This document shows, piece after piece, positions 19,820-21,506 of a stretch of 40,142 bases of DNA. How positions within the stretch are numbered: the stretch's first letter is position 1; each line of letters opens with the position of its first letter. Where the stretch lies: the NCBI GenBank assembly GCA_021792405.1, contig JAJYUU010000027.1, positions 1 through 40,142 of the forward strand. Reading direction: 5' to 3'. Both the position numbers and the translations under genes were made by a program. Under the pieces are notes generated by a model, which worked only from the letters and a program-made list of their open reading frames with translations, did no database searches and had not been told where the DNA came from. The stretch comes from Actinomycetes bacterium (GTDB lineage Bacteria; Actinomycetota; Actinomycetes; Streptosporangiales; Streptosporangiaceae).

Positions 19820-19913
19820 GCCGCCCCGGCGACTTGCTCCATGATCGATGTTGGGTTTTTGCTGCTATAGCAACAGAAACCCAACATCGACGACTCGCGG
19901 TCGCCGGGGCGGC
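19820..19913. repeat. Nested inverted repeat (possible bidirectional terminator or repeat element)
   Basis: An outer repeat GCCGCCCCGGCGAC (19820-19833) pairs with GTCGCCGGGGCGGC (19900-19913). Inside it, TCGATGTTGGGTTT (19845-19858) pairs perfectly with AAACCCAACATCGA (19877-19890). The centre can form TTGCT/AGCAA around GCTAT. The AT-rich inner repeat stands out from its GC-rich surroundings. It sits between etfA and the convergent G1-peptidase pseudogene, where a two-way terminator would fit, but the nested arms also look like a dispersed element. Confidence 0.6.
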
Positions 19914-19929: not shown

Positions 19930-20640
19930 TCAGATCGACCTGATCCAGGTGTTGCTGAAGGCGCCGGCGCTAGACATGGAGCTAGTCGAGTCCTTCTCGC
20001 GGCCGCTGTTGTCGATCATGATGATCTGAGTCGGGCTCTGCGTGCCCATTGAAGTGCCGTTGGCCGCTCGAGACCGTGTAGTCGATGGTGCCGAAGTCGG
20101 CGAGCGACAGGATCCCGCCGCTGGCCGTACAGCACTGCGCCTCGGTGATCACCTCAGCCAAGGACCGGGCGAAGCCGCTCTCGTTGATGGTCTGGGTCTG
20201 AGTCCAGCCCTGGGTACTGTCCGTGAGCACCAGCGTGTAGGTGTCGGTGCCGGAGAACGTCACCGATGCGCTCATGGCGTCGCCGGGCTTGACGGTGTTG
20301 GTGTAGTACACCGGGTACGCCGGATACATCTCGTACCAGCCGTAGTAATCCGGCGTAGAACCGGTGCAATCAGAGTCGGTTCCCGTTTGCTCCACCGAGT
20401 TACTGCTGTAGCCGTCGAGCCCCACCCAGAACGCGGCGTACTGGTCGCCGCGGCGGCACGTCGCGGTCGGCTGCGTCCAGCTCGCGGACACACTGGTGAA
20501 TGCGCCGTTCGAGCCGGTCACTGCCTAGCCTGACCAGTTCGTGCTGTAGGCCTGGAAACGGCCGTGCCGTCCCACTGCCCGCGCCGTGCCGCCGGGCCGC
20601 GCCATGACGCCGCCGGGCGCGAAACCGTGGATTGCGCCGC
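19930..20640 (-). pseudogene. G1-family (eqolisin-like, Peptidase_A4) endopeptidase, disrupted
   Basis: On the minus strand the sequence reads IHGFAPGGV...AYSTNWSG, an in-frame TAG (20527-20525), then AVTGSNGAFTSVSASW, FWVGLDGYSSNSVEQTG, YYGWYEMYPAYPV, VKPGDAMSASV and ILSLADFGTIDY. These are the blocks of actinobacterial G1 peptidases, including the conserved Gln (VEQTG) and Glu (AEVITEAQ) positions. The TAG replaces the Tyr of the usual NWSGYA. Near 20060-20068 the frame shifts; the next frame continues NGTSMGTQSPTQIIMID and ends NTWIRSI at the stop at 19930. The usual signal peptide is missing upstream of 20640. One stop, one frameshift and a lost start indicate a true pseudogene. The intact enzyme would be a secreted acid protease. 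Confidence 0.75.
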
Positions 20641-20774
20641 CGGGCCGCACCGTGGCGCTGGCCCTTGGAGATGGCTGGCCGCCGGGCCCACGACGCGGGG
20701 TGTGCGAGTAACTGTGGACATCCGGTGGATAAGCGGCGACTGCGGGGGATAACAATCGTCCCACTGTGGACGGA

Positions 20775-21038
20775 AAAAGAATCTTGAAAGAATTGCCCGA
20801 AAGCCTTGCGGGCACGGCGACGCAGGCACTAGAAAGTCGTTCAGCACCTTCAGAAGCAGGCCCTCTCGGGCGCAGTCCCGTGAGTATGCGGAAGACTTGG
20901 GCGACCGGGTCTCACGCGGTGGCCGCTGGCAAGGTGCAGGCGCGGCAGTGTCCGGATCGGTCGAGGAATCGGCAGGTCAGCGTCTTGCCGATGCCCTAGT
21001 GAGGCCCCTGCGGCTCATACCTGCGGGGGCCTCACTAG
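20775..21038 (+). ncRNA. Putative structured RNA element, copy 1, with terminator-like hairpin
   Basis: This stretch has no coding potential. It begins AAAAGAATCTTGAAA, continues with a GCCCG-(AAAGCCTTG)-CGGGC stem-loop, a TAGAAA segment, and a hairpin ATCGGCAGG/CTTGCCGAT. It ends in an 18-bp hairpin (20996-21013 with 21021-21038) around the loop CTCATAC. A diverged second copy follows 406 bp downstream in the same order. A TAACAAT sequence about 20 bp upstream of its start may be a -10 element. The layout (AT-rich start, several hairpins, strong terminal stem) fits an independent small RNA of about 260 nt on the plus strand. Strand and function are inferred; a mobile repeat is the alternative. 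Confidence 0.45.
20996..21038 (+). terminator. 18-bp hairpin with CTCATAC loop ending element copy 1
   Basis: The left arm (20996-21013) is CTAGTGAGGCCCCTGCGG and the right arm (21021-21038) is CTGCGGGGGCCTCACTAG, pairing over 18 positions with two G-T pairs. The loop is CTCATAC. There is no T-run after it, as is common for actinobacterial terminators. The same loop and GAGGCCCC stem base recur at 21396-21432. Confidence 0.65.
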
Positions 21039-21180
21039 CTTCTCGCGCAGGATGCAACTGTGCCCTGGCGGGGCTGGCTCCGTGGCCCGATGGGCGCTGG
21101 CGGCCGCTGTTGCGGCGAGACTTATGAAACCCGATAAGCTATTTGGCGGGTAAATCGCGGAGCGGTGCCGGCGACGCGCT

Positions 21181-21432
21181 AAAAGAATCTTGGAACTTCT
21201 CGCGAAAAGCCCTTGCGCCAGCCGTCCTGTCAGGCGTAGAAAATCAGTCACGGCCAAGCCGGTCCCGACCTCCGGAGTCATCCGCAGGCGGCGCAGAGCG
21301 GGTAACCGCGCTACGCCGCAGGGGCCTACCCCTGGCAGTACAGGTGACGTCAGCAAGTCGGCCGAGCGATCGGCAGGCAAGTGAAGCGCGCCTCGCTGAG
21401 GCCCCTCCATCTCATACATGGAGGGGCCTCAG
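21181..21432 (+). ncRNA. Putative structured RNA element, copy 2, with terminator-like hairpin
   Basis: This is a diverged copy of the element at 20775. It has the same opening (AAAAGAATCTTGGAA) and a stem-loop GCG-(AAAAGCCCTTG)-CGC with nearly the same loop but different stem bases. It then has a TAGAAAATC segment, the shared GATCGGCAGG motif, and a terminal 15-bp hairpin around CTCATAC. Overall identity to copy 1 is low outside these blocks, while their order and spacing are kept, which is how paralogous structured RNAs diverge. GATAAGCTAT about 45 bp upstream is a possible -10 region. The following gene starts at 21507, so a leader role for the DUF2332 gene is also possible. The 21041-21180 spacer holds no gene that I can support. 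Confidence 0.45.
21396..21432 (+). terminator. 15-bp perfect hairpin with CTCATAC loop ending element copy 2
   Basis: CTGAGGCCCCTCCAT (21396-21410) pairs perfectly with ATGGAGGGGCCTCAG (21418-21432) around CTCATAC (21411-21417). Compared with the hairpin at 20996 the upper stem has changed on both sides, keeping pairing, while the loop is identical. No T-run follows. Confidence 0.7.
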
Positions 21433-21472
21433 TCGGCTGCAGGCCCGGCTCGTCGGCTGCAGGCCCGGCTCG
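21433..21472 (+). repeat. Exact tandem duplication of a 20-mer
   Basis: TCGGCTGCAGGCCCGGCTCG occurs twice head to tail (21433-21452 and 21453-21472), directly after the terminal hairpin of RNA element copy 2 and 34 bp before the DUF2332 start. It is probably a recent slippage duplication; no function is evident. Confidence 0.8.
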
Positions 21473-21506
21473 CGCATCGTGAACCCGGAATAGTGCCAGT
21501 TCGCTC

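Follow-up and report, generated by a model that had tools for sequence, protein, structure and literature searches.

A structured RNA recurring across Actinomycetes, with a nearly invariant terminal loop and, in most homologues, an upstream row of DnaA-like boxes

Downstream of etfB and etfA, and upstream of a DUF2332 gene, an actinobacterial draft genome (G000, 5.4 Mb) carries two similar, diverged elements in tandem. What do these elements encode, how might they be controlled, and what might their product do? The sequence-only reading of the window (the whole stretch of DNA analysed here, 40,142 nucleotides) had taken them for non-coding structured RNAs of about 260 and 250 nt, sharing an opening, a first hairpin, a short motif and a terminal hairpin. 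Both elements were confirmed at the positions proposed for them, and the common opening AAAAGAATCTTG was found in each copy, at 20775 and 21181 of the window sequence. Pfam gave no match for the open reading frames lying over the two elements, and a coding explanation was therefore rejected, in agreement with that reading. Either copy folds better than 200 of 200 shuffled sequences (z-scores relative to shuffles of -4.7 for copy 1 and -5.2 for copy 2).

Several further features were observed at this locus. A double palindrome is located 3' of etfA (19820-19913), in which a perfect 14-bp pair (19820-19833 and 19900-19913) encloses a pair of 23-bp arms (19845-19867 and 19868-19890); it is probably a large terminator or a repeat element. 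Between etfA and the RNAs, the minus strand carries an open reading frame of the Peptidase A4 family (19982-20521), and GTCGGCTGCAGGCCCGGCTC occurs twice, as a perfect 20-nt direct repeat, immediately 3' of the second terminator (21432-21471).

Promoter and extent of the two genes

The first hairpin of the earlier description did not hold up as an RNA structure. Its supposed loop contains the -35 box of a predicted promoter (Table 1), and the segment corresponds to that promoter. A stem of at least 4 bp was present at this position in 5 of 67 homologous genes, compared with 7 expected from shuffled pairing; as the pairing was no better than chance, the hairpin was rejected. Across the homologous loci, CTTG(T/C)G precedes TA(G/C)A(A/C)A, and the spacer between the two boxes, which is 18 bp long in 33 and 17 bp long in 30 of the 63 non-redundant genes, has no conserved sequence. 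The AT-rich element upstream of the promoter is kept within the family, and other AT-rich sequence takes its place elsewhere.

Transcription should start 6–8 nt past the predicted -10 box and end at the terminator, which would give transcripts of about 198 nt for copy 1 and about 186 nt for copy 2. Since AAAAGAATCTTG and the supposed first hairpin both lie upstream of this predicted start, the lengths given previously have to be revised, and the RNAs are expected to be approximately 190–200 nt rather than 250–260 nt long. Judged from sequence, these small RNA genes have a promoter and a terminator of their own, and each element is best explained as a free-standing small RNA gene with a putative sigma-70-type promoter and an intrinsic terminator.

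Table 1. Coordinates of predicted features of the two RNA genes in the window
Feature	Positions	Strand	Details
DnaA-like box row, copy 1	20713..20773	+	four boxes, spacings 11, 21, 20 bp
DnaA-like box TGTGGACAT	20713-20721	+	row upstream of copy 1
DnaA-like box GGTGGATAA	20724-20732	+	row upstream of copy 1
DnaA-like box GGGGATAAC	20745-20753	+	row upstream of copy 1
DnaA-like box TGTGGACGG	20765-20773	+	row upstream of copy 1
AT-rich element AAAAGAATCTTGAAA, possible UP element	20775..20789	+	upstream of promoter 1
Promoter 1	20806..20835	+	-35 TTGCGG 20806-20811, 18-bp spacer, -10 TAGAAA 20830-20835
RNA copy 1	20840..21037	+	predicted start, about +/-3 nt; covariance-model match 20837-21034, 87.9 bits
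5' domain, copy 1	20844..20937	+	P1, 20844-20850 with 20931-20937, closes a junction of two inner hairpins
GNRA hairpin, copy 1	20960..20973	+	GTCGA-GGAA-TCGGC
Terminator hairpin, copy 1	20997..21037	+	loop CTCATAC 21014-21020
AT-rich element AAAAGAATCTTGGAA	21181..21195	+	upstream of promoter 2
Promoter 2	21213..21242	+	-35 TTGCGC 21213-21218, 18-bp spacer, -10 TAGAAA 21237-21242; no DnaA-like row upstream
RNA copy 2	21247..21432	+	predicted start; covariance-model match 21243-21431, 96.6 bits
GNRA hairpin, copy 2	21361..21374	+	GCCGA-GCGA-TCGGC
Terminator hairpin, copy 2	21396..21432	+	loop CTCATAC 21411-21417

Fold, homologues and distribution of the RNA

The RNA is modelled as a 5' domain, where helix P1 encloses a junction of two hairpins, followed by a GNRA-capped middle domain and a terminator hairpin. 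The GNRA hairpins of the two copies end in ATCGGCAGG or GATCGGCAGG; the GATCGGCAGG-type motif pointed out previously was found in both copies, where it forms the 3' half of the GNRA hairpin. The terminal hairpins were also as described, with an identical CTCATAC loop on differing stems that still pair. In an alignment of 57 sequences, which was fitted to the structure model, changes on both sides were found at 35 of 40 base pairs, 92.9% of the cells were paired (79.8% after shuffling), and pairing fell to 29–47% when the partners were slid by 1–3 columns. In a structure-blind MAFFT alignment of 17 sequences, 19 of 40 pairs of a structure predicted from that same alignment covaried, with a score of 0.357 vs 0.199 for shuffled data. 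Selection acts on the RNA structure as such.

Some other lineages have versions of 250–570 nt with extra GNRA hairpins. Among these, enlarged RNAs of 450–570 nt were observed in Frankiaceae and other actinobacterial metagenome-assembled genomes (MAGs; L020, L053), with many additional CGGGNAACCG (GNRA) hairpins between promoter and terminator. In a third copy in the host genome (C21:6754-7008, L015; also L022), the middle hairpin domain is duplicated, and this copy has DnaA-like boxes of its own.

Homologues were sought in several ways. DNA searches detected copies, often in tandem, in 7 of 8 further genomes of the genus and in one more genus. The exact terminal-hairpin pattern was present at 48 loci, all from MAGs, among 84,980 species searched; these were labelled Streptosporangiaceae, Pseudonocardiales, Frankiales, Jatrophihabitans, Geodermatophilaceae and Nocardioidaceae, and the list is incomplete because the pattern requires CAT/ATG at the top of the stem. 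A covariance model built from 17 transcripts (R1, with rough E-values) matched 21 of 151 family genomes and, in the class Actinomycetes, 63 of 395 genomes, representing 46 of the 138 sampled genera, a class count that is slightly high since the weak matches include some plain terminators (L126-L128). In the most divergent families, it is mainly the promoter, the GNRA hairpin and the terminator that support the match. Only one weak R1 match was detected outside the class in a phylum-wide sample. Thus, a structured non-coding RNA recurs across many families of Actinomycetes. The covariance model search and the analysis of covariation had both been put forward with the sequence-only reading, and its central proposal, that two diverged copies of an RNA structure under selection lie in tandem, is borne out by class-wide homologues and strong covariation.

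Gene neighbours differ between lineages: etfA in the window and at one other locus (L035), yebC and ruvC in Geodermatophilaceae, and various metabolic genes elsewhere. No partner gene was conserved beyond the lineage level among the neighbours of homologous loci, and this change of context fits a trans-acting gene. The multiple, often tandem copies could also be viewed as the remains or the cargo of a mobile element (transposon, plasmid or phage). We consider this very improbable: the neighbours include the housekeeping genes etfBA and yebC-ruvC, promoter, fold and terminator are conserved, and no match to the RNA was detected in phages, plasmids or viral contigs. The homologues are not pieces of phages, nor of transposons, an origin that the initial reading had named as one that would speak against it.

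Rfam 15 gave no hit over the RNAs at the gathering threshold (window and 20 homologous loci) or in permissive scans (window 20600-21500 and 28 further loci), so that the Rfam search suggested earlier returned no matching family, and we found no description of the RNA in the open-access literature. The family has no counterpart in Rfam; in kind, it belongs to the bacterial structured RNAs and is set apart by an unusual regulatory region in front of the gene. It is rare for a free-standing structured RNA with a distribution spanning an entire bacterial class to be absent from Rfam.

Among known RNAs, Ms1/scr3559 is likewise actinobacterial and free-standing, and Ms1 is about 230–300 nt long (PMC9130861). 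Such similarity in size, together with the own promoter, would be compatible with an RNA that binds RNA polymerase like 6S RNA or Ms1, its actinobacterial relative, possibly as a replacement: the present RNA occurs in Frankiales and Geodermatophilaceae, and no Ms1 was detected in either Frankiales or Geodermatophilales (PMC9130861). However, Ms1 has a 6S-like fold and fixed synteny with a HAD hydrolase gene, whereas the consensus fold here is a junction with separate hairpins instead of a long rod with a central bulge, and the scores of R1 on HAD-IB flanks, the candidate Ms1 neighbourhoods, did not exceed chance (best 7.6 bits). A Streptomyces-like Ms1 query had no match in the genomes of the family. 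We regard a polymerase-binding role as unlikely.

Rows of DnaA-like boxes

Upstream of copy 1, we identified a row of four DnaA-like boxes (Table 1) that was not part of the earlier description. The same arrangement is present in most homologues. Counting as a box any site within one mismatch of TTRTCCACA, 132 boxes were found in the 200 nt upstream of 66 genes vs about 4 in shuffled sequences, and 118 of the 132 share one orientation. Distances between boxes peak at 12, 20–21, 24, 32–33, 45, 53 and 65 bp, with a period of about 10.75 bp, and the boxes would therefore face one side of the helix. The row consensus CTGTGGATAAC was derived from sites seeded with a core of TGTGGA or GGGGA; its reverse complement is a perfect DnaA box. 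The same 9-mers are used in the dnaA-dnaN regions of six genomes. The rows contain 44 sites per 2 kb, compared with 2–5 at oriC of the six genomes and 0.33 in control loci, a density roughly ten or more times that of the examined oriC regions. DnaA boxes with the oriC motif, the sequence mark of a DnaA-regulated gene, are thus present upstream.

The RNA loci are not part of an origin. An oriC or dnaA neighbourhood was rejected, with dnaA 200 kb from the RNA gene in one genome (G414) and, in another (G447), on the same contig at a distance of 1.39 Mb, and R1 had no match on oriC. Two families (f36 and f27) also lack the row, as do several tandem second copies, among them copy 2 of the window. 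Control by DnaA is therefore not a fixed part of the family, and the persistence of the RNA where the row is absent suggests that it is the RNA, and not the row alone, that is kept.

This last point bears on the possibility that function resides in the DNA row, which would then be an ectopic datA- or DARS-like locus for the titration, inactivation or reactivation of DnaA; the RNA would arise as a by-product of transcription at the locus or would assist it. A dense array of helically phased DnaA boxes at a distance from oriC would fit such a role: datA, DARS1 and DARS2 of E. coli are non-coding loci, likewise distant from the origin, at which DnaA boxes are clustered, with five boxes in datA and three in DARS1 (PMC4585315). 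In contrast to the present loci, where the row is followed by a promoter, a structured RNA and a terminator, no covarying RNA gene belongs to the definition of datA and DARS. A promoter and a terminator would be needless for a DNA element of this kind, and the RNA structure is selected and persists without the row in f36, f27 and second copies. We therefore judge it unlikely, albeit the least unlikely of the alternatives considered.

The closest known concept is CcnA of Caulobacter crescentus, a 182-nt non-coding RNA at the origin that is presumed to be activated by CtrA (PMC8959179). Like the RNA described here, it is the product of a short non-coding RNA gene tied to DnaA boxes and the cell cycle. 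However, the present RNA is encoded away from oriC, in another phylum, has another fold, and its DnaA-box row is located upstream of the promoter.

The terminal loop and a possible mode of action

The terminal loop is nearly invariant, whereas the terminator stem that carries it covaries. The loop is CTCATAC in 57 and CTCATGC in 3 of the 63 non-redundant genes (one of the three remaining loops is a mis-hit), and its closing stems are of 11 kinds in the same set. Rarer variants are UUCAUAC, CUGAUAC (one lineage) and CUCGUAA. We considered CTCATAC as a general terminator loop and rejected this explanation, as the genome has only four perfect GGCCCCT...AGGGGCC hairpins, three of which have CTCATAC; other long hairpins at the retrieved loci, which were partly chosen for CTCATAC, have scattered loops. 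A hairpin with the CTCATAC loop, and with neither promoter nor RNA body, was observed near a cobalamin riboswitch match (G000:C271:24196-24224; L129, L144), and similar hairpin-only CTCATAC matches occur in further genomes of the genus.

That the loop stays invariant while its stems change suggests a single conserved partner. The terminal loops fit the YUNR motif, with the exception of one further loop, CCCATAC. YUNR is a U-turn motif of RNA recognition loops that is typical of RNA-RNA contacts (PMC4485353, PMC6562991), and antisense RNAs with a YUNR recognition loop on a stem-loop resemble the present RNA in this respect (PMC4485353, PMC6562991). They differ in that each has one cognate transcript, whereas the loop described here is nearly invariant throughout the class. 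A different reading of the loop is that it imitates the anticodon loop of a CAU tRNA (Met or Ile2), with a tRNA enzyme or the translation machinery as its binding partner. C-U-C-A-U-A/G-C equals the CUCAUAA anticodon loop present in tRNAs of this genome at 6 of 7 positions, a weak lead: the match is short, the seventh base is nearly always C, one lineage has CUGAUAC, and no other tRNA-like part is present. Such mimicry appears improbable.

Of the explanations considered, we favor, as reasonably likely, a free-standing, trans-acting and probably DnaA-regulated RNA with a U-turn terminal loop and its own promoter and terminator. DnaA would bind the row, as its motif and spacing suggest, and would set transcription according to the level or nucleotide state of DnaA; the boxes lie upstream of the -35 box, a place suited to activation. 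The RNA may then act in trans via its U-turn terminal loop on one conserved partner, either an RNA or a protein, a step we propose with less certainty. Tandem second copies that have no boxes could provide a constitutive or differently regulated supply.

As the RNA usually lies behind a row of oriC-like DnaA boxes, it may connect a regulatory RNA with the replication of the chromosome. If DnaA does control it, replication initiation would be linked to an RNA in bacteria that are known mostly from MAGs and have a little-understood cell cycle. More tentatively, transcription of this class-wide RNA may be driven by an oriC-like, helically phased DnaA array; the state of the initiator would thereby be conveyed to a trans-acting RNA whose U-turn loop is invariant. 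If true, this would be an RNA branch of replication control, which has not been described for Actinomycetes.
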